From the NCBI RefSeq assembly GCF_002043005.1, contig NZ_CP020330.1, positions 3,118,001 through 3,182,000 of the forward strand: a DNA stretch of 64,000 bases, written 5' to 3'. The notes below the pieces were generated by a model. That model was not told where the DNA came from. It made no database searches and was given only the letters and a program-made list of their open reading frames with translations. The DNA is from Martelella mediterranea DSM 17316 (GTDB taxonomy: Bacteria; Pseudomonadota; Alphaproteobacteria; Rhizobiales; Rhizobiaceae). Below are positions 32,602 through 42,658 of the stretch, in pieces. The position numbers and the translations under genes were made by a program. Each line of letters opens with the position of its first letter. Within the stretch, counting starts at the first letter, position 1.

Positions 32602-33015
32602 GTGAAACGCGCCCTGACGGCTTTCGTGGCCACGGCCATCTGCTTTTCCCTGCTGGATTTCATCTGGCTCGGCACGATCGCCTTTCCATTCTACCAATCC
32701 GAGATCGGGCCGCTGCTGCTGCCGTCGCCCAACTGGACCGCCGGCCTGAGCTTCTATTTCATGTATCTGATCGGCATCTTCTATTTCGCCGTTCTGCCGG
32801 GCGTCAGGGCCGGCTCGGCGCTGAAGGGCCTCGTGAACGGCGCGGTTTTCGGGCTGATGGCCTATGGCACCTACGATCTCACCAATATGGCAACCCTTGC
32901 CGGCTGGTCGTGGACCGTGGTCTTCGTCGATATGGCCTGGGGCGCGTTTGCCACCGGGCTGACCGGCCTTGTCGCCTCTTTCGCGACGCTGAAGCTGACC
33001 CGCAGCCCGGCTTGA
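32602..33015 (+). CDS. DUF2177 membrane protein
   Basis: Membrane protein of 137 residues with four helices. Seen: the family start FSLLDFIWLGTIAFPFYQSEIG (broken: LLDFIWLG, FYQSEIGPLL) and GLMAYGTYDLTNMATL. It begins ten bases after chrR, so it shares the sigma operon. DUF2177 proteins have no known activity; the operon position points to a membrane role in the same stress response. Confidence 0.85.
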   Translation: MKRALTAFVATAICFSLLDFIWLGTIAFPFYQSEIGPLLLPSPNWTAGLSFYFMYLIGIFYFAVLPGVRAGSALKGLVNGAVFGLMAYGTYDLTNMATLAGWSWTVVFVDMAWGAFATGLTGLVASFATLKLTRSPA

Positions 33016-33061
33016 CTTCGCCCTTGCCGTGCCGTTTGAAAGGCGCGGAAGGGTGACCCTC

Positions 33062-33652
33062 ATGTTCAAGCTCAAAGGTCCCGCGACATCGGAGCGGGAG
33101 ATCAAAAAAAGCCGCTTTGCGACGATTGCCGCCCCGGTGGATGACGAGGCGGCGGCAAAAACTTTTATCGCCGAAAACAGCTTCGCCGATGCCACCCATA
33201 ATTGCTGGGCCTGGCGCATTGGCGCGGACTACCGATTCTCCGACGACGGCGAGCCCGGCGGGACGGCCGGAAAGCCGATCCTTCAGGCGATCGAGGCTCA
33301 GGAGATCGATAGCGTCGCGGTGCTTGTGTCGCGCTGGTTCGGCGGCGTGAAGCTCGGCACGGGCGGACTGGCGCGCGCCTATGGCGGCAGTGCCGCGGAA
33401 TGCCTGCGGCTGGCCGAAAAGCTGCCGATCGTGGCGATGACGGCGGGGGTGTTGCCGGTTGCCTTCTCCGATCTGGCGCTTGTGGAGGCGCGGCTTCAGG
33501 ATGTTGATGGCCTCGTGATCGCCGACCGCGATTTCACCGAAACCGGGGCCGACTTTCATCTGCGTGTGCCGGAGGCGGGGGCCGCGGCGCTGGCCGAGCT
33601 TGTGCGCGAACTCACGAATGGCCGCAGCAGCGTGAAATTCGATGACGACTGA
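33062..33652 (+). CDS. YigZ/IMPACT family protein
   Basis: Protein of 196 residues. Seen: EREIKKSRFATIAAPV, ATHNCWAWRIG, FSDDGEPGGTAGKPIL, and VSRWFGGVKLGTGGLARAYG, which are the conserved blocks of the UPF0029/IMPACT fold. In eukaryotes IMPACT relatives modulate translation; the bacterial role is not settled. The ATG at 33062 has GGAAGGG upstream. It follows the DUF2177 gene by 46 bases and may be transcribed from it. Confidence 0.9.
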   Translation: MFKLKGPATSEREIKKSRFATIAAPVDDEAAAKTFIAENSFADATHNCWAWRIGADYRFSDDGEPGGTAGKPILQAIEAQEIDSVAVLVSRWFGGVKLGTGGLARAYGGSAAECLRLAEKLPIVAMTAGVLPVAFSDLALVEARLQDVDGLVIADRDFTETGADFHLRVPEAGAAALAELVRELTNGRSSVKFDDD

Positions 33653-33739
33653 GCGGATTTATCCGCTATGCTGCGGGAACCCGCCGCATGCGCCGGCGTT
33701 GATACGCTGTCGCCCCATTTTTCCGCAAAGGTCACCTTC

Positions 33740-34078
33740 ATGCGCTCCGCTCTCACCGTCATCGCCCTTGCCGCAACGCTTGCCGCCTGCACCCAGCGCG
33801 CCGATTCGATCGGTGCCATTCCGGTTTCGCCCGAGGAATTCGCCGGCAGCAGTTGCGAGACGCTGCTCAGCCAATATGAGGATGAGAACGCGAAGCTGAA
33901 GGACCTTGCGCAAGAGCAGGACAGCGAGATCGTGGGCGATGTGCGCATGTTCGGCGCAAGCCTCGGCAGCATGTCCGAGGACCAGAACATCAAGAACCAG
34001 GAAACCGCGATCGCCTACGCCAAGGGTCGCGTCAACGCGCTGGACATCGCGATGCGCCGGAAGAACTGCGCGATGTGA
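33740..34078 (+). CDS. Small predicted lipoprotein
   Basis: Protein of 112 residues with a signal peptide ending in lipobox LAAC (MRSALTVIALAATLAAC). The mature part is helical and charged (SCETLLSQYEDENAKLKDLAQ, then RVNALDIAMRRKNCAM) and holds two cysteines besides the lipid Cys. No family is recognised beyond short rhizobial lipoproteins. It stands 87 bases after the YigZ gene. Confidence 0.75.
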   Translation: MRSALTVIALAATLAACTQRADSIGAIPVSPEEFAGSSCETLLSQYEDENAKLKDLAQEQDSEIVGDVRMFGASLGSMSEDQNIKNQETAIAYAKGRVNALDIAMRRKNCAM

Positions 34079-34241
34079 GGCGATTGCGCTTGCCCGCCGC
34101 CGCCGCGTATAGAGGAACGGGAGCCGATTCCCGGTGACGGGAAAGATCAGCCATGTTGGATGGACCGGACCCGTCCGCCGGGTATGACGCAGCGTCGTCC
34201 CGCGGCTGCGGGCGATCCGGCGTTACAGGATTGTCCGCACG

Positions 34242-35333
34242 ATGAATTCCGCAGAAGAGCCGGAAGAACCGGCCTCCGCTGACGGCGGGAAAAGACAGCT
34301 TCTGCGCATCTGGCTTCCGCTTCTGGCGCTCTCCATCCTGCTCGTGATCCTCATGCAGCTTGTCGCGCTGCCGGCCTCGCTGCTTTTGGGCCCGATGCTG
34401 GCGTCGATCCTGATCGTGTTTTCCGGGCGGCGGATCACCATGCCGCGCCTGCCGTTCAACCTGGCGCAGGGCGTGCTCGGCTGCCTGATCGCGCGCACCA
34501 TGACATGGCCGGTGCTGCAGGAAATCGCCGCCGACTGGATGATCTTCGTGGGCGGCGTGCTCTCGGTGGTGTTCGCCAGCATCGCGATCGGTTGGGTTCT
34601 GGCGCGCTATCAGGTGTTGCCCGGCACGACCGCGATCTGGGGCGCGTTTCCCGGCGCTGCGAGCGTGATGACGCTGATGTCCGCCTCGTTCGGAGCCGAC
34701 ATGCGGCTCGTCGCCTTCATGCAATATACCCGCGTCGTCATCGTCACCCTCGTCGCCGCCACCTTCGCGCGGTTCTGGACCGGCGGCGCGGCGCAAACGG
34801 CCGTACCGGTCTACTGGTTCGCCGAGCCGGCATGGGGCCCGCTTGCCCAGACGCTCGCCCTGATCCTGATCGGCGTGTTCTTCGGCCGGTGGCTTAAGCT
34901 GCCGGCGGGACCGATGCTGGCGACGGTGATCGCCGGCTCGGTGCTCAATGTCACGGGCCTGATCGAGATCGAACTGCCGCAGATCCTGCTTGCCATCGCC
35001 TATGCCACGCTCGGCTGGGGCATCGGCGCGCGCTTCGACCGCGCCGTGATCGTCGATGCCGGCCGCGCCATGCCGCGCGTCATCGCCTCGATCCTCGCGC
35101 TGGTGGCGATCTGCGGCGTGCTGGCGGCGCTGCTCGTCTGGCTCACGGGCATCGATCCGCTGTCGGCCTATCTCGCCACCAGCCCGGGCGGCGCGGATTC
35201 GATCGCGATCATCTCCGCCTCCACCGATGTCGACGTCGCCTTCGTGATGTCGATGCAGATCGCCCGGTTCTTCTTCGTGATGGCGCTCGGGCCGATCCTC
35301 GCCAAGCTGGTGGCGAAGCACAGCCGGTTCTGA
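34242..35333 (+). CDS. AbrB-family (PF05145) membrane protein
   Basis: Membrane protein of 363 residues with about ten helices in two similar halves. Seen: LPASLLLGPMLASILIVFSGRRI in the first half, LPAGPMLATVIAGSVLNVTG in the second (each cut here), and LVWLTGIDPLSAYLATSPGGAD near the end, all typical of the AbrB/YkvP-like 'duplication' family. Despite the family name, these are membrane proteins, often near transporters, and their substrate is unknown. The gene is monocistronic by spacing. Confidence 0.85.
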   Translation: MNSAEEPEEPASADGGKRQLLRIWLPLLALSILLVILMQLVALPASLLLGPMLASILIVFSGRRITMPRLPFNLAQGVLGCLIARTMTWPVLQEIAADWMIFVGGVLSVVFASIAIGWVLARYQVLPGTTAIWGAFPGAASVMTLMSASFGADMRLVAFMQYTRVVIVTLVAATFARFWTGGAAQTAVPVYWFAEPAWGPLAQTLALILIGVFFGRWLKLPAGPMLATVIAGSVLNVTGLIEIELPQILLAIAYATLGWGIGARFDRAVIVDAGRAMPRVIASILALVAICGVLAALLVWLTGIDPLSAYLATSPGGADSIAIISASTDVDVAFVMSMQIARFFFVMALGPILAKLVAKHSRF

Positions 35334-35408
35334 ACCGATTTTGATTGTCCACGGCCCGCTGCCGGGTTAGCCTTCGCCAACGATAACAGGTGCGACGGAG
35401 GACAGATC

Positions 35409-36386
35409 ATGTGCACGCGGATTTTCTACGAGACCGGAACCTCAACCTACATCACCGGCCGCTCGATGGACTGGCGCGACGTGACCATGCAATCCGACCT
35501 CTGGGTGTTTCCGCGCGGGCTTTCCCGCGATGGCGGGGTGGGCGAGGGGTCGGCGACATGGACCTCGCAATACGGCTCGGTGATCGTCGCGATCTACAAT
35601 CTCGCCACCTCCGACGGCATGAACGAGGCGGGGCTTGCCGGCAACATGCTCTATCTGGTCGAATCCTCCTATGGCGATCCGGCCGCGCGGGGCAAGCCGC
35701 TGATCTCGGTCGGCGCCTGGCTGCAATACATGCTCGACAATTTCGCGACCGTCGCGGAAGCGGCCGAGGCCATGGCCGACGATCCGCTGACGGTGATCAC
35801 CGGCGAGGCGCCGAACGGCGCGCCGGCGACCGTGCATCTGGCGCTTTCCGATGCCGCCGGCGACAGCGCGATCTTCGAATTCGTCGGCGGCAAGCTCACC
35901 ATCCATCACGGCCGCGACTACAAGGTGATGACCAATTCGCCGACCTATGACCAACAGCTTGCCATCAACGGCTACTGGAACCTCGTCGGCGGCAAGAGTT
36001 TTCTGCCCGGCACGGTGAACGCCGCCGACCGTTTCGCCCGCGCCAGCTACAACCTGAAATCCGCAACGCCGCTCAAGGACCGGCGCGCAGCACTCGCCTC
36101 CGTGTTCTCGCAGGTGCGCGCGATCTCGACCCCGCTCGGCATGTCCGACCCCGAAAAACCCAACATCGCCTCCACCCTCTGGCGCACCGTCGCCGAACAC
36201 GACCACCGCCGCTACTATTTCGACTCCGTCATCAACCCCTCGGTGTTCTGGGTCGATCTTGCGGATTTCGATCTCTCCGAGGGCGCTCCGGCGAAGACGC
36301 TGGGGCTGAATGATCCGGCCCTACCGGGCGGGGATGTTGCGGGGCTGATGAAAGAGGCAGCGCCGTTTGAGTTTTTGGTGCCGTGA
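35409..36386 (+). CDS. Linear amide C-N hydrolase (choloylglycine hydrolase/penicillin acylase type)
   Basis: N-terminal-nucleophile hydrolase of 325 residues. Seen: MCTRIFYETGTSTYITGRSMDW (cut: CTRIFYETG, TGRSMDW), with Cys2 as the nucleophile after Met removal, Asp in SMDW, and Asn in VYWNLVG-like NGYWNLVGG. Family members cleave amides of bile acids, penicillin V or acyl-homoserine lactones. A GGAGGA ribosome site precedes the ATG. No signal peptide is seen, so it probably acts in the cytosol. It ends the GC-rich core just before an AT-rich insert. Confidence 0.88.
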   Translation: MCTRIFYETGTSTYITGRSMDWRDVTMQSDLWVFPRGLSRDGGVGEGSATWTSQYGSVIVAIYNLATSDGMNEAGLAGNMLYLVESSYGDPAARGKPLISVGAWLQYMLDNFATVAEAAEAMADDPLTVITGEAPNGAPATVHLALSDAAGDSAIFEFVGGKLTIHHGRDYKVMTNSPTYDQQLAINGYWNLVGGKSFLPGTVNAADRFARASYNLKSATPLKDRRAALASVFSQVRAISTPLGMSDPEKPNIASTLWRTVAEHDHRRYYFDSVINPSVFWVDLADFDLSEGAPAKTLGLNDPALPGGDVAGLMKEAAPFEFLVP

Positions 36387-36460
36387 GGGGGGATTAGGGT
36401 AAATATTTAGTGCCGATTGGCAGTCGCCACCGACACGTCCGTAGTCAAGTTTGGGTATTG

Positions 36461-37960
36461 TTATTCGCTACTGTTCTCCAAGGCTTTTTTAACTGCTGAG
36501 ATCGCTACATTCTCTTGATTGAGGTAAGTTGATATGTCGTTTTTAAACATAGGTTTTGCGCTTCCACCACGGTAATCAATATACCGCCCTTCAGACTTTC
36601 GCTTCGTTCGAGCAAAGAATTCGCGATATCGCCGAGGGGTGATCCCAGAAAAAGGAACGAAGTTGACGGAGGGGAACTTTTCGAAAGAACCTCTAGACAT
36701 TCCCTCAATATGAACTGAATCAGAATGAAGATCAGCCGTAAGGCTTTTTGGATAGGGCTCCAAGAACACTACTTTACTTATACCGCTTGCAACAATGTGC
36801 TTTGAACACATATGGCAAGGAAATGTTGTGCAATATAGCGTTGCGCCTTGAACGCTTATTCCTAATCGAGAAGCATCGCTAAGTGCAGACATTTCTGCAT
36901 GGATGATTCTTCCATACTCTAGAGCGCTCATGAATTGGGATTCTTTTACGCGATCTTGTTGTTTTTTCGAAATTTTATCCCGATCAATATTGAATATATC
37001 AAGTATCTCATTAAATATTTCTGATTTTCTTATGTCATTGCTATCTTGAGAGGTTCTATATTCTCGCGCATCAAATGAATCGTCCGCCCAATATGTCCCA
37101 CCTCCTGCTTTTGGCACTTCATTTGCCCCAAGTGCTGCGATCTCTCCAGTCTCCCTAAAGATCGCCGCTCCCACTTGTCGAGATAGATCTAAGCTTCTTA
37201 ACGCGGCTGAATGCGCTAGGTACATACCGTATTCAAGATGGTTTGGAGAATAACCATTATAACCAAAGAGAAGCTCGATAAAGCGCTTAACTTGCACAGA
37301 GACGTCGTCGCTTTTGTCTATCAGGTCGGCATTCACAACAACATCAGCAAGCTGGAATATTTTCCCTACCTGTTGACCATTTGGTTGATTTATTTCATCT
37401 TCATCACGACAAACAAGAGCTTCGGCTTTATCTCTATAGAAGTTAGTATCGCGCTTTTTATTATCGTGAGACATATCCCTAGAAAGAGAGTCAACTCGGA
37501 CGTGCCTGGCAGAGTAAACTGAGATTTGGAAAAAGGACCTGCCGTATATTTCTTTTAATAGGTTAATTTCGTCCTCTGTTTTCAGTTGATCGACAACGTA
37601 AACATTGCAACTATCGGAATAGTTAGATCTGGTTTCGGCGATCTTTGAAATGGAAAAAGCTGATAGGAACCTCGATCCTAACTTGTTTCTCAAATGATTT
37701 CCAAAATCTATATACGACGTTATGCGAGTGTATCTGGTGGATTTATCCAGTTTTTCATATTTGATTTCTTGAGCGATCTCATGAAAAGAGTTTGTGATCT
37801 TTATATGATGAAAATTGTATTTTTTCTCTATAAACCCTTTCTCCAAGGCGTCCAGAGTGCTTTTTAGCGGAGTCCCCACCGGAGATACGATTCCAATGAC
37901 AATTTCAGGCAGCCGATCCTCTAATTCTCTGTATGTTTCGGTGGTCATAATCTTAGCCAT
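36461..37960 (-). CDS. Anti-phage dCTP deaminase-like protein (DCD/AvcD type)
   Basis: Two-domain protein of about 499 residues. Seen: an N-terminal P-loop-kinase-like domain (IVIGIVSPVGTPLKST, residues about 21-35, a degenerate P-loop without the usual GKS/T) and a C-terminal zinc deaminase domain with HAE (His354, Glu356) and PCHMC (Cys382, Cys385), preceded by LGANEVPKAGGGTYW. This architecture is that of DCD/AvcD, which destroys dCTP/dCMP pools after phage infection. The gene is clearly AT-rich with AAA/ATA/AGA codons, unlike its neighbours, so it was probably acquired. The start at 37960 is a choice; 37948 is possible. Confidence 0.85.
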   Translation of the reverse strand: MAKIMTTETYRELEDRLPEIVIGIVSPVGTPLKSTLDALEKGFIEKKYNFHHIKITNSFHEIAQEIKYEKLDKSTRYTRITSYIDFGNHLRNKLGSRFLSAFSISKIAETRSNYSDSCNVYVVDQLKTEDEINLLKEIYGRSFFQISVYSARHVRVDSLSRDMSHDNKKRDTNFYRDKAEALVCRDEDEINQPNGQQVGKIFQLADVVVNADLIDKSDDVSVQVKRFIELLFGYNGYSPNHLEYGMYLAHSAALRSLDLSRQVGAAIFRETGEIAALGANEVPKAGGGTYWADDSFDAREYRTSQDSNDIRKSEIFNEILDIFNIDRDKISKKQQDRVKESQFMSALEYGRIIHAEMSALSDASRLGISVQGATLYCTTFPCHMCSKHIVASGISKVVFLEPYPKSLTADLHSDSVHIEGMSRGSFEKFPSVNFVPFSGITPRRYREFFARTKRKSEGRYIDYRGGSAKPMFKNDISTYLNQENVAISAVKKALENSSE

Positions 37961-38019
37961 TTGGTAGAGTTTGTGTGAGAGATTCTCTTCATAAATTACC
38001 GCTTTTCTTGGAGATGGCA

Positions 38020-38190
38020 ATGCAATCTAACGATCGAAAAAAAGAAGAAAAACAAGTAACGAAAAGCCACGTCCTTGTAGAACGCCTCGAATCACTAACG
38101 AAAAAAAATGAGAGGGCCTATGACGCTGCGATCGAAGATTTTAGAGATAGATTTTCGTTGGGTTCTGTAAATTATTCTGAAGCAGAATAA
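38020..38190 (+). CDS. Small charged protein divergent from the deaminase
   Basis: A frame of 56 residues, rich in Lys, Glu, Arg and Asp, predicted mostly helical (KKEEKQVTKSHVLVERLESL, then AAIEDFRDRFSLGS). The ATG at 38020 has GGAG six bases upstream, and a strong terminator lies eight bases after the stop, so it looks like a complete gene. It shares the AT-rich composition of the deaminase and lies head to head with it, 59 bp between starts. No family is recognised. It could be a regulator or partner of the deaminase. Confidence 0.6.
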   Translation: MQSNDRKKEEKQVTKSHVLVERLESLTKKNERAYDAAIEDFRDRFSLGSVNYSEAE

Positions 38191-38197
38191 AGTGTCA

Positions 38198-38231
38198 AAA
38201 GCCCCATCAACAGACGAGTTGATGGGGCTTT
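38198..38231. terminator. Bidirectional intrinsic terminator
   Basis: A perfect 14-bp stem AAAGCCCCATCAAC/GTTGATGGGGCTTT with a six-base loop. The plus strand continues with TCTTTTC and the minus strand with TTTTGACA, so it can end transcription of both the small ORF and gcvP, which converge here. Confidence 0.9.
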
Positions 38232-38268
38232 CTTTTCGATATGGAAATTCCTCAGGCTACTATTTCGA

Positions 38269-41133
38269 CTACTCCGCAGCTTCCGCATACTCGCTCATCG
38301 GCGGGCAGGCGCACACCAGATTCCGATCCCCATAGACATTATCCACGCGGTTGACCGGCGGCCAGTATTTGTCGACGCGGAAGGCGCCGGGGGGGAAGCA
38401 GGCTTGTTCGCGGGAATAGGGGTGGGTCCATTCGCCGACAAGATCTTCCACCGTGTGCGGGGCGTTTTTCAGCGGGTTGTCGTCCCGGTCGGCGCGGCCT
38501 TCCTCGATCTCGGTAATTTCGGCGCGGATCGCGATCAGGGCATCACAAAAACGATCCAGCTCGGCCTTGGTCTCCGATTCCGTCGGCTCGATCATCAGCG
38601 TGCCGGGGACGGGGAAGCTCATGGTCGGGGCGTGGAAGCCGCAATCGATCAGGCGCTTGGCGATGTCGTCGACGGAGACGTCGGCGCTGTCCTTCAGCGG
38701 GCGCGTGTCGATGATGCATTCATGCGCGACGCGGCCCTTGTCCGACTTGTAGAGCACTTCGTAGGAACCCTTCAGTCGGGCCGCGATATAGTTGGCGTTG
38801 AGGATCGCCACGCGGGTTGCCTGCGTCAGCCCTTCGCCGCCCATCATCAGGCAGTAGCTCCAGGAGATCGGCAGGATCGAGGGCGAGCCGAACGGGGCGG
38901 CTGAGACCGCGCCGCCGTCCGCATCCGTCGCCGGATTGCCGGGAAGGTGCGGCGCCAGATGCGCCTTGACGCCGATCGGCCCCATGCCCGGCCCGCCGCC
39001 GCCATGGGGAATGCAGAAGGTCTTGTGCAGGTTGAGGTGGCTGACATCCGAGCCGATATCGCCCGGCCGCGACAGGCCCACCATCGCGTTCATATTGGCC
39101 CCGTCGAGATAGACCTGGCCGCCATGGGCGTGGGTGATCGCGCAGACCTCGGTCACCGTCTCCTCGAACACGCCATGGGTCGAGGGGTAAGTGATCATGC
39201 AGGCCGCGAGGTTTTCGGCATGCTGCTCGGCCTTGGCGCGGAAATCGTCGATGTCGATATCGCCATTGTCGCGCGATTTCACCGGCACCACCTTCATGCC
39301 CGCAAGCTGGGCGGAGGCCGGGTTGGTGCCGTGCGCGGAGGTCGGGATCAGGCAGATGTTGCGGTGGGCCTCGCCATTGGCGCGGTGATAGCGGCGGATC
39401 GTCAGAAGCCCCGCATATTCGCCCTGCGCGCCCGAATTCGGCTGCATCGAGAAAGCGTCATAGCCGGTGATCTGGCAGAGTTTTTCGGAGAGGTCGGCGA
39501 TCATCTCGCGGTAGCCGGCCGTCTGGCTTTCCGGCGCGAACGGATGGATATCGGCGAATTCCGGCCAGGTGATCGGCAGCATTTCCGCCGTCGCGTTGAG
39601 CTTCATCGTGCAGGAACCGAGCGGGATCATCGACCGGTCGAGGGCGAGGTCGCGGTCGGCGAGGCGGCGCATATAGCGGGTCATCTCGCTTTCGGCGCGG
39701 TTCATGTGGAAGATCGGGTGCGTCATGTAAGCGCTTGTCCGCAAAAGGTTTTGCGGCAAGCGGTAGTCGGCCTCGAATTCGGCTATCGAGAACTTGCCGC
39801 CGAAGGCATCCCACACGGCTCCGACATGGGCCGGCCTTGTGCGCTCGTTGACGGAAATGCCGATCCTGGTGTCGCCGACCTTCCTGAGGTTGACGCCGTT
39901 TTCGACCGCGTTCTTCATGATCAGGCTCTGGAACGCGCCGACCTCGACCGTGACGGTGTCAAAGAAGGTCTCCGGCTCCACCGTGAAGCCGAGCGCCTCG
40001 AGGCCCTTCGCCAGCAGCACGCCCTTGCGGTGGACCTGCTGGGCAATCGCCTTCAGCCCGTCCGGACCGTGGAACACGCCATACATCGAGGCCATGACGG
40101 CGAGCAGCACCTGGGCGGTGCAGATGTTCGACGTCGCCTTTTCGCGGCGGATATGCTGTTCGCGGGTCTGCAGCGCCAGACGATAGGCGCGGTTGCCACG
40201 GCTATCCACCGACACGCCGACGAGACGGCCGGGCATGGAGCGCTTGTAGGCATCCTTGACCGCCATATAGGCGGCATGCGGGCCGCCATAGCCGAGCGGC
40301 ACGCCGAAGCGCTGCGACGAGCCGATGGCGATATCGGCATCCATCTCGCCCGGCGATTTCAGAAGCGTGAGGGCCAGCGGATCGGCGGCGATGGTGGCGA
40401 TGGCGTTTGCGGCATGGAGATCGGCGATGACGCCGGTGAAATCATGCACATGGCCATAGGTGCCGGGATACTGGAAGATCGCGCCGAAAACGGCGTCGGG
40501 CGTGAGATCCTTGAAGGGATCGCCGACGATCACTTCCCAGCCGAGCGGTTCGGCGCGGGTTTTTATCAACGCAATGGTCTGCGGATGGCAATTTTCGTCG
40601 ACGAAGAAGGCGGTCGCCTTCGATTTCGCCACGCGGTTCGCCATCGCCATGGCTTCGGCTGCCGCCGTCGCCTCGTCGAGCAGCGAGGCATTGGCGATGT
40701 CGAGGCCGGTGAGGTCGGCCATCATCGTCTGGAAGTTCAACAGCGCCTCCAGCCGGCCTTGGGAGATTTCCGGCTGATAGGGCGTGTAGGCGGTGTACCA
40801 GGCCGGGTTTTCGAGAATATTGCGCTGGATCACCGGCGGCGTGATGGTGGCGTTATAGCCCTGGCCGATCATCGAGGCGAGCGGCTTGTTCTTGTTGGCG
40901 GTCTCGCGCAGCTTGTCGAGCGCCTCGCGCTCGGTCATGGCCGGGCCCCAGGCGAGCGGCGCCTTCTGGCGGATGCCGGCGGGCACGGTAGCGTCGATCA
41001 GCGCGTCGAGACTGTCATAGCCGATCACCTTCAGCATCGCCTCCATTTCGGACGGCGAGGGGCCGATATGGCGGCGGTTGGCGAAGTCGTAGGGCTGGTA
41101 GTCGGTGAACTGGAATTCCGCAGGGGTCGTCAT
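38269..41133 (-). CDS. gcvP: Glycine dehydrogenase (decarboxylating), P protein
   Basis: PLP enzyme of 954 residues that decarboxylates glycine and passes the aminomethyl group to lipoylated GcvH. Seen: fused alpha and beta halves, [16 protein letters not shown] start, the PLP lysine in [20 protein letters not shown] (broken: [14 protein letters not shown]), [31 protein letters not shown] segment (cut: [16 protein letters not shown]). The ATG overlaps the gcvH stop by one base. Length is that of the single-chain form. It is the last gene of the riboswitch-controlled operon. Confidence 0.97.
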
Positions 41134-41498
41134 CAGGCGATGAACTCCTTGTAGGCGGCCTCGTCCATCAGCGCATCGGCATCGGCCGTGTTGGCGAGCT
41201 TCAGCTTGAAGAACCAGCCGTCACCCATCGGCGCGGAGTTGACGAGCTCTGGATTATCGACGATCGCCTGGTTGACCTCGGTGATCTCGCCATCGAGCGG
41301 ACAAAAGACATCGGAAGCGGCCTTGACCGATTCGACGGTCGCGGCATCGTCATTCTTGGAGAAGGTCGCGCCCACCTCGGGCAGTTCGACGAAAACGAGG
41401 TCGCCGAGCTGTTCGGCGGCATGCTGGGTGATGCCGACGGTCGCGACATCGCCCTCGATCTTCAGCCATTCATGTTCTTCGGTAAATTTGATGGTCAT
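41133..41498 (-). CDS. gcvH: Glycine cleavage system H protein
   Basis: Lipoyl carrier protein of 121 residues. Seen: [18 protein letters not shown], and the lipoylated lysine Lys59 in [19 protein letters not shown] (cut: [14 protein letters not shown]). It shuttles the aminomethyl group between GcvP and GcvT. The ATG at 41498 is the start of homology. Operon order is gcvT-gcvH-gcvP with a gap of 17 bases after gcvT. Confidence 0.97.
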
Positions 41499-41515
41499 TT
41501 TGCTGTTCCCGCTGA

Positions 41516-42658
41516 TTAGCGCTTGTAGGTAGGGGTTATGAAAGGCATGTCGGCGATGGTGACGGGCAGGCATTTGCCCCGTACCTCGGCGAAAATTTTT
41601 GTGCCGGTGGCGGTATGTTCGGCGGCGACATAGCCCATGGCGACCGGGCCGCCGGTCGAAGGGCCGAAGCTGCCGGAAGTGACGTGGCCGATTTCGACTT
41701 GGCCGGCCTCATCGGCATAGAGTTTCGACGGTGGACGAACCGGCGCGCGGCCCTCCGGCTTCAGGCCGACGCGCTTGCGAGAAACGCCTTCGGTAAGCTG
41801 TTGGAAAATGCGCTCTGATCCCGGAAAGCCGCCTTCGCGGGCGCCGCCCGGCCGGCGGGCCTTCTGCATGCCCCAGACGAGGGCGGCCTCGACCGGCGTC
41901 GTGGTCTCGTCGATGTCGTTACCGTAAAGGCAGAGCCCGGCTTCAAGCCGCAACGAATCGCGCGCGCCAAGGCCGATGGCCTCGCAATCCTCATGCGCCA
42001 GCAGCGCGCGGGCGAGTTCATCGGCCTTTTCTGCGGGCACCGAGATTTCGAACCCGTCCTCGCCGCTATAGCCGGAGCGAGAGATCACGCAGGTCACGCC
42101 GAGCATGTCGCAGGCGCGCACATCCATGAATTTCATCTCGGTCACGGCCTCGCAGAGCGACGCCAGCACGGCTTCCGCCTTCGGGCCCTGCAGCGCCAGC
42201 AGCGCCTTTTCCTCGAAGAATGCCTCGACATTGCAGAGGTCGGAAAGATGCGCCTTCATATGGGCGAGATCGGCTTCCTTGCAGGCGGCGTTGACGATCA
42301 CCAGCAGGTGGTCGCCGCGGTTGGCGACCATCAGATCGTCCAGAATGCCACCGTCCTCATCGGTAAAGAAGGCATAGCGCTGGCGGCCGGGTTTGAGGCC
42401 CGCGATATCGACTGGCACGAGCCGTTCCAGCGCAAGCGCTGCATCGGCGAGATTGCCGGAAATCGGCTTCAGCCAGACCTGACCCATATGCGAAACATCG
42501 AAAAGGCCTGCTTTTTCGCGGGTATGAAGATGTTCTTTGAGAACGCCCATCGGATATTGCACCGGCATGTCGTAGCCGGCAAACGGCACCATGCGGGCGC
42601 CAAGCTCCAGATGAAGCGCGTGAAGCGGGGTTTGTTTCAGCGGTTCTTGCGAGACCAA
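41516..42658 (-). CDS. gcvT: Aminomethyltransferase, glycine cleavage T protein
   Basis: Transfers the methylene from aminomethyl-GcvH to tetrahydrofolate and releases ammonia; 380 residues. Seen: [35 protein letters not shown], and [20 protein letters not shown] (cut: [15 protein letters not shown]). The start is TTG at 42658, with GGAGG seven bases upstream and no in-frame ATG that would keep the conserved start. It is the first gene behind the tandem glycine riboswitch. Confidence 0.96.

Follow-up and report, generated by a model that had tools for sequence, protein, structure and literature searches.

How a nucleotide-depleting defence enzyme is silenced and then released remains an open point, and only an RNA inhibitor is described in the literature covered. 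In Vibrio, the inhibitor AvcI, encoded next to avcD or upstream of it, is a non-coding RNA (PMC10511110, PMC12409362, PMC9455884), and AvcD is held by this RNA and released once host transcription stops (PMC10511110, PMC12409362), according to the sections of those papers that were available. A locus of Martelella mediterranea DSM 17316 raises the question of whether a protein can take this place. It was analyzed within a stretch of 64,000 nucleotides (contig NZ_CP020330.1, referred to here as the window), and the original prediction, made from the sequence of the window, was that a 56-residue ORF next to an AvcD-type deaminase could encode a proteinaceous inhibitor or activator. The features of the locus are as follows.

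36387..38268, no strand: AT-rich cargo interval, with a choloylglycine-hydrolase-like gene on one side and a presumed gcvP on the other
36461..37960, minus strand: predicted anti-phage dC(TP/MP) deaminase, 499 aa (NF041025, PADLOC dCTPase, catalytic residues, fold)
37960..37966, minus strand: TA[ACG]CAAA motif abutting the deaminase start (conserved position)
38010..38013, plus strand: Shine-Dalgarno GGAG of the small gene (sequence; anti-SD duplex)
38020..38190, plus strand: divergent small gene, 56 aa, family A partner (homologues, codon pattern)
38171..38198, minus strand: promoter-like TTGACA-16-AATAAT directed toward the deaminase, overlapping the small gene's 3' end
38198..38231, plus strand: intrinsic terminator of the small gene (hairpin energy, z, T tract)

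An AT-rich Insert in a Variable Interval

The cargo interval (36387-38268, ∼1.9 kb) is bounded on the left by a choloylglycine-hydrolase-family gene (PF02275) and on the right by a gene that, from its translation, we take to be gcvP. It contains the deaminase gene on the minus strand and, divergently, the 56-aa ORF on the plus strand. As shown by the GC profile of positions 33000-42000 in 500-base windows, the GC content was 0.38-0.43 within the insert, versus 0.60-0.70 on either side, which confirmed the AT-rich insert that had been predicted to hold these two genes. The hydrolase gene was present in all 13 genomes of the genus, including that of the window, and gcvP was found 0.96-2.4 kb past it in eight of the nine downstream stretches compared; in the ninth (L088), gcvP was not found within 12 kb downstream. 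The cargo between the two genes varies among congeners, and in one congener the interval measures merely 0.96 kb and has ordinary GC. The hydrolase-gcvP interval is an insertion hotspot, and the cassette in the window is one of its cargoes.

Six cargo proteins of this interval were scanned against PADLOC and Pfam; one was of the AIPR/AbiU type (L080), one was PIN_8 (L087), and four had no match in either collection. The cargo of L086 is a protein of P-loop appearance, that of L085 a two-gene unit and that of L084 a hydrophobic, membrane-like protein; these three, with no PADLOC or Pfam match, are candidate new systems.

The Deaminase Falls in the Anti-Phage Family

The deaminase ORF runs on the minus strand from the ATG at 37960 to the stop at 36461 and encodes 499 amino acid residues; a second in-frame ATG is located at 37948 (MTTET...). 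The protein scored 431.6 bits against NF041025, the “anti-phage dCTP deaminase” model of NCBIfam (cut-off 400). With the PADLOC dCTPase model, for which no cut-off is given, the score was 522 bits. An adenylate-kinase-like (P-loop-kinase-like) domain was assigned to residues 19-232, and a zinc deaminase domain to the C-terminal part (residues ∼238-447), with HAE at 354-356 and PC..C at 381-385. The residues H354, A355, E356, P381, C382 and C385 were invariant across 31 aligned sequences, the window included, and the structure model (pLDDT 85) gave adenylate-kinase-like and dCMP-deaminase folds as its matches. The P-loop-like plus zinc-deaminase build of DCD/AvcD, as originally predicted, was thus corroborated by a score above the NF041025 cut-off, by intact motifs and by a two-domain fold.

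Whether the protein belongs to a different family, for example that of the housekeeping dCMP deaminases, was checked and answered in the negative, given that the anti-phage model exceeded its cut-off and the single-domain deaminase models remained far below theirs. Housekeeping and phage dCMP deaminases (2hvv, 1vq2) matched the deaminase domain only, whereas the window protein carries a further domain, adenylate-kinase-like in fold, and its score places it in the anti-phage family. On the basis of family membership, it is predicted to deaminate dCTP or dCMP and to protect against phage.

The Small ORF Is a Conserved Protein-Coding Gene

When the small protein was used as a single query, only the protein itself was recovered among 5.8 billion proteins, and a scan of viral contigs using it alone confirmed nothing. 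Relatives were reached through the deaminase loci, namely in four genomes (a MAG named Arenimonas, Ensifer, Phyllobacterium and Metarhizobium; deaminase identity 55-65%) and eight IMG/VR viral contigs (58-63%). All twelve carried a divergent ORF of 57-61 aa at the same place, which could be aligned with that of the window. Counted by score, a homologue at the same distance and in the same orientation was found in every one of the 13 loci whose deaminase reached 597 bits, the window included; with the duplicates or near-duplicates L006/L057, L053/L054 and L059/L060 taken into account, these represent 10 distinct loci. The consensus of this family, termed family A, is MQxxxEKKA...LDRLxSLAxKNxxAYxxALxDFRDxFTLGS. 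A profile search returned 22 proteins including that of the window (E 1e-23 to 1e-6); the database proteins are hypothetical or nameless, and the 21 further ones, several of which represent the same loci, are listed without genomic context.

Ten pairwise codon comparisons of the small gene were made. One pair had no differences, and in all nine differing pairs the third codon positions changed most (e.g., 1, 2, 8 and 13, 4, 32). The dN/dS ratio was 0 for L053/L054 (two differences), 0.12 for L053/L055 (eleven differences) and 0.05 for L058/L059, where dS is near saturation; six other pairs were saturated. A chance ORF was rejected on the grounds of homology and codon pattern, and the small ORF is a real protein-coding gene. 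The original reading of the ORF as coding therefore held in both respects in which it was checked, that is, conservation beside the deaminase (13/13 close loci, 10 distinct) and a coding signal in the compared sequences (9/9 differing pairs).

The small protein matched no known family in PADLOC, NCBIfam or Pfam. With the 22 family A members, Pfam gave weak matches of at most two members per family (best E 0.0016, with eukaryotic coiled-coil-type names), a PDB profile match to AMP nucleosidase was obtained at E 0.014, and the best PHROGs match of the window protein was at E 0.036. Its model consists of a single helix (residues 4-45, pLDDT 74) with loose ends; neither a helix-turn-helix nor any other DNA-binding family was matched, and the model has no DNA-binding fold.

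The Small Gene and the Deaminase Form a Conserved Unit

The family A profile confirmed five viral contigs, all of them among the eight found through the deaminase. Among 346 genomes of the window's family, two strong matches were obtained, in the window genome and in L008, and both were adjacent to a deaminase; a third match (E 0.0087), which lies inside a 259-aa frame with no deaminase nearby, was treated as chance. No plasmid record matched. Apart from that chance-level match, no family A gene without a deaminase was found where the context was readable (346 genomes, confirmed viral contigs and plasmids), so that the proposed search for co-occurrence in other genomes found the partners together in every readable context.

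The identity matrices of the small protein and the deaminase were correlated (r 0.89 over 45 pairs from 10 distinct loci; Mantel, 0 of 5000), as co-inheritance predicts, and the small protein diverges faster (mean identity 0.35 versus 0.62). The outer neighbours differ among the eight loci listed, and the unit is therefore the deaminase and the small gene alone, a cassette whose surroundings vary and which is present both on cellular contigs and on viral contigs of IMG/VR. The deaminase and the divergent protein-coding small gene are a conserved unit. One family A cassette (L005, JAIBEK010000027.1) is located on a contig binned as Arenimonas, far from its rhizobial relatives, which could reflect horizontal transfer or a binning error.

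Translation, Transcription and RNA Signals

The GGAG at 38010-38013 lies 6 nt ahead of the ATG of the small gene. Its anti-SD duplex was calculated at -6.4 kcal/mol, versus +2.3 for the deaminase start. Over the 10 distinct loci, pairing at the small gene ranged from -4.7 to -6.8 kcal/mol (mean -5.8, against -3.8 for composition-matched shuffles), and pairing at the deaminase start averaged -1.0, equal to the shuffles (-1.0), with seven of the 10 starts unpaired. Downstream, a hairpin of -24.3 kcal/mol (z -6.3 relative to 200 shuffles) is followed by CTTTT, and a GC-rich hairpin was seen by eye at the corresponding place in the other family A rows of the alignment. The ribosome site and strong terminator claimed earlier for the small gene are both present.

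On the deaminase side, the TA[ACG]CAAA motif was found at a fixed distance from the gene in 10 of the 10 distinct family A loci, and in two of the 12 non-A loci printed, at different distances. The promoter-like site at 38198-38171 matched the consensus at 11 of 12 positions, which was reached by one of 60 shuffles, and it could give rise to a deaminase leader of ∼210 nt antisense to the small gene. The other nine distinct family A loci matched at most 8 of 12; a similarly located site of the sister locus L002 reaches 10 of 12, a value also attained among 60 shuffles of L002 itself. No deaminase promoter common to the clade was found.

RNA folding gave z values of -0.34 and 0.11 in the window, and over the 10 loci two of 20 folds fell below -2; the deaminase strand leaned slightly stable (mean z about -0.7, negative in 8 of 10 loci). 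No Rfam family reached its gathering score in the window, and a match to antisense_SR1 covering the terminator together with the small gene's 3' part (E 0.79; 18.9 bits against 45) was treated as chance. The two start codons are 59 nt apart (56-72 nt across family A loci), which leaves no room between the genes for a separate RNA of ∼200 nt. No structured RNA stands out clearly in the clade of the window.

A Second Small-Protein Family in the Sister Clade

A deaminase tree of 69 rows was built, and L054 and L057 (near-duplicates) and L020, L039 and L051 (partial or broken) were set aside before rows were counted. The family A loci formed one side of a branch (11 rows, SH-aLRT 96), as did the loci of a second family, family B (4 rows, SH-aLRT 98). 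The family B small protein, with the motif RPxxLRGPFVI, occupies the same divergent place in the sister clade and has 26 database proteins at E<=1; profile comparison revealed no homology between families A and B or between A and C. Among 347 genomes of the order, family B was found at E below 1e-6 in five, all deaminase-adjacent, of which four were known through the deaminase search and one (G244) was new. Four weaker matches (E 7e-4 to 4e-3), which had no deaminase, were treated as chance. A good member (46.5 bits) is an orphan on a Rhizobium leguminosarum plasmid (L118), where no deaminase was found in the 6 kb read, ∼3 kb on either side. This orphan (NZ_CP140867.1, about 740460-740660) is preceded by a Shine-Dalgarno-like AGGAGG. 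In genome G153 (L020/L097), the family B partner is intact and the deaminase frame is split.

Of the loci that could be anchored, those with a deaminase of at least 278 bits had a divergent ORF passing the position filter in 27 of 30 cases, versus 2 of 22 below that score, a rough count since the line was set after the result was seen; 11 of the 63 loci could not be anchored and lie outside it. At least five of the 27 ORFs (L013, L014, L017, L030 and L031) have no detected relatives and may be chance, neither of the two ORFs below 278 bits has a Shine-Dalgarno sequence, and some loci below this score have other small ORFs nearby. In L002, the next deaminase beyond the family A clade (55% identity), the divergent ORF lies further off and shows a weak likeness to family A (E 0.84). 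The label C was set by position and appearance and includes L002 though its ORF is unlike; labels C and D each require two changes on the tree.

A Proposed Role of the Small Protein and Its Alternatives

We consider it slightly better than an even chance that the two genes make up a mobile defence cassette resembling a toxin-antitoxin pair, with the small protein restraining the deaminase until a phage infects. In the uninfected cell, the well-translated small protein would bind the deaminase and keep it inactive. A phage that stops host gene expression, or attacks the small protein, would leave it degraded and not replaced; the freed deaminase would convert dCTP/dCMP to dUTP/dUMP, starving or damaging phage DNA synthesis. 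A protein would thereby play, in the clade of the window, the role that AvcI RNA plays in Vibrio AvcID. A labile protein inhibitor is favoured because the place is held by a protein gene, no clear structured RNA was seen, and the single-helix model has no DNA-binding fold. In addition, AvcD expression is toxic and its overproduction without the inhibitor leads to filamentation, as described in the available part of PMC9455884, so that an inhibitor is to be expected; the second, unrelated small family in the same place of the sister clade also counts for this reading. Given that families A and B have no detectable homology, a mechanism shared by the two is assumed. Against inhibition stand the divergent genes, the orphan family B member, the antisense promoter-like site and the leaning of the deaminase strand toward stability. 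Coding capacity, conservation and linkage thus support the original idea of a proteinaceous inhibitor or activator, and from these we infer inhibition.

An activator or sensor would account just as well for the position, linkage and co-divergence. If the small protein were an activator, a sensor or a required subunit, and the deaminase alone inactive, then tight linkage, co-divergence and coding constraint would equally be expected, and a well-translated small gene would suit a constitutive sensor. Published relatives, however, show activity on their own and have to be inhibited (PMC9455884, PMC10511110), and distant deaminases mostly have no divergent gene (2 of 22 anchored loci below 278 bits), which indicates that the enzyme core does not require one; an activating role therefore appears unlikely. 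It is rather improbable that the inhibitor is an RNA, either transcribed from the deaminase strand, opposite the small gene, or identical with the small gene's own transcript, with the protein doing another job. AvcI is an RNA in the published system, the promoter-like site at 38198-38171 is rightly directed and has a 10-of-12 counterpart in L002, folding of the deaminase strand is a little more stable than that of shuffles (mean z about -0.7), and a strong terminator ends the small gene. However, the promoter-like site drops to 8/12 or less in the other nine distinct family A loci, the folds are unremarkable (window z -0.34 and 0.11; 2/20 below -2), no Rfam family reached its gathering score, substitutions track codons, and 56-72 nt alone separate the family A start codons.

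A divergent arrangement is typical of regulator-target pairs, and TA[ACG]CAAA is identically placed at each family A deaminase start; both would suit a small protein that autoregulates transcription at the divergent promoters and leaves the enzyme itself alone. This is quite improbable, since no DNA-binding family was matched, the model is a single helix, and no symmetric operator was seen by eye in the conserved motif. The one family B relative away from a deaminase is what an independent passenger, merely lying beside the enzyme gene, would produce, but the same position is kept in 13/13 close loci despite differing outer neighbours (eight listed), and no family A gene occurs elsewhere in the 346 same-family genomes (the chance-level match aside), the confirmed viral contigs or the plasmids, which makes a passenger highly implausible.

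Comparison With Known Systems

Like AvcID/DCD of Vibrio and E. coli, the window locus combines a deaminase of this family, recognized through the NF041025 and PADLOC dCTPase models, with a compact two-component layout. It differs from AvcID in that the upstream position belongs to a divergent gene that codes for a protein and has a Shine-Dalgarno sequence and terminator of its own. An ORF inside V. cholerae avcI was reportedly tested and dismissed. The island setting described for AvcID in the accessible part of PMC12409362 is shared with the window cassette.

The linkage of a potentially toxic enzyme to a small partner protein that evolves fast is also reminiscent of type II toxin-antitoxin systems, and neutralisation of the deaminase by the small protein would resemble the action of a type II antitoxin. 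Type II toxins and antitoxins are usually encoded in one operon, whereas the window genes are divergent, with no operon, and no DNA-binding domain was found in the partner; because of this divergence the pair is likened to a type II system and not filed as one. For a protein antitoxin of a defence enzyme, the FIC protein Sofic and its small antitoxin AS1 offer a precedent (PMC12249575). In that system a small protein encoded nearby keeps the defence enzyme quiet, as would be the case in the window; unlike in the window, AS1 is downstream of Sofic, and the enzyme is unrelated.

Among the matches listed in the open-access literature (titles and the starts of abstracts, the founding papers not being covered), no protein partner of these deaminases was found. 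If the inhibitor reading is true, a conserved protein partner would be a simple second solution to silencing, and the annotation of such systems would change, family A being at present hypothetical or nameless and matching no PADLOC, NCBIfam or Pfam model.

Co-oriented ORFs in a Gammaproteobacteria-Rich Clade

In a clade of nine deaminases, most named members of which are gammaproteobacteria, an upstream co-oriented small ORF ending in tryptophan was found at eight of the nine loci, and at none of the 11 loci tested outside the clade. These ORFs encode 56-74 aa, and six of the eight end in KxxW. Their positions are as follows.

L106, 695-877: tryptophan-ended ORF
L110, 557-727: tryptophan-ended ORF
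L111, 642-827: tryptophan-ended ORF
L112, 595-777: tryptophan-ended ORF
L108, 571-744: tryptophan-ended ORF
L117, 611-781: tryptophan-ended ORF
L045 and L048: tryptophan-ended ORFs

It is possible, with the chances a little short of even, that the inhibitor repeatedly changed its nature within one deaminase family, with RNA inhibitors in some clades, two or more unrelated small proteins (A and B) elsewhere and perhaps a third, co-oriented and tryptophan-ended, in this largely gammaproteobacterial clade. In that case, the 56-aa protein of the window would act as a protein antitoxin, making the locus a type II-like variant of a system known so far as type III, and one toxin would be seen to have swapped its antitoxin between RNA and unrelated proteins. 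The tryptophan-ended ORFs sit where an AvcI-type RNA would be expected. At L114 and L115, a hypothetical gene of ∼170-180 aa lies downstream and overlaps the deaminase by a few bases, possibly representing a different partner.
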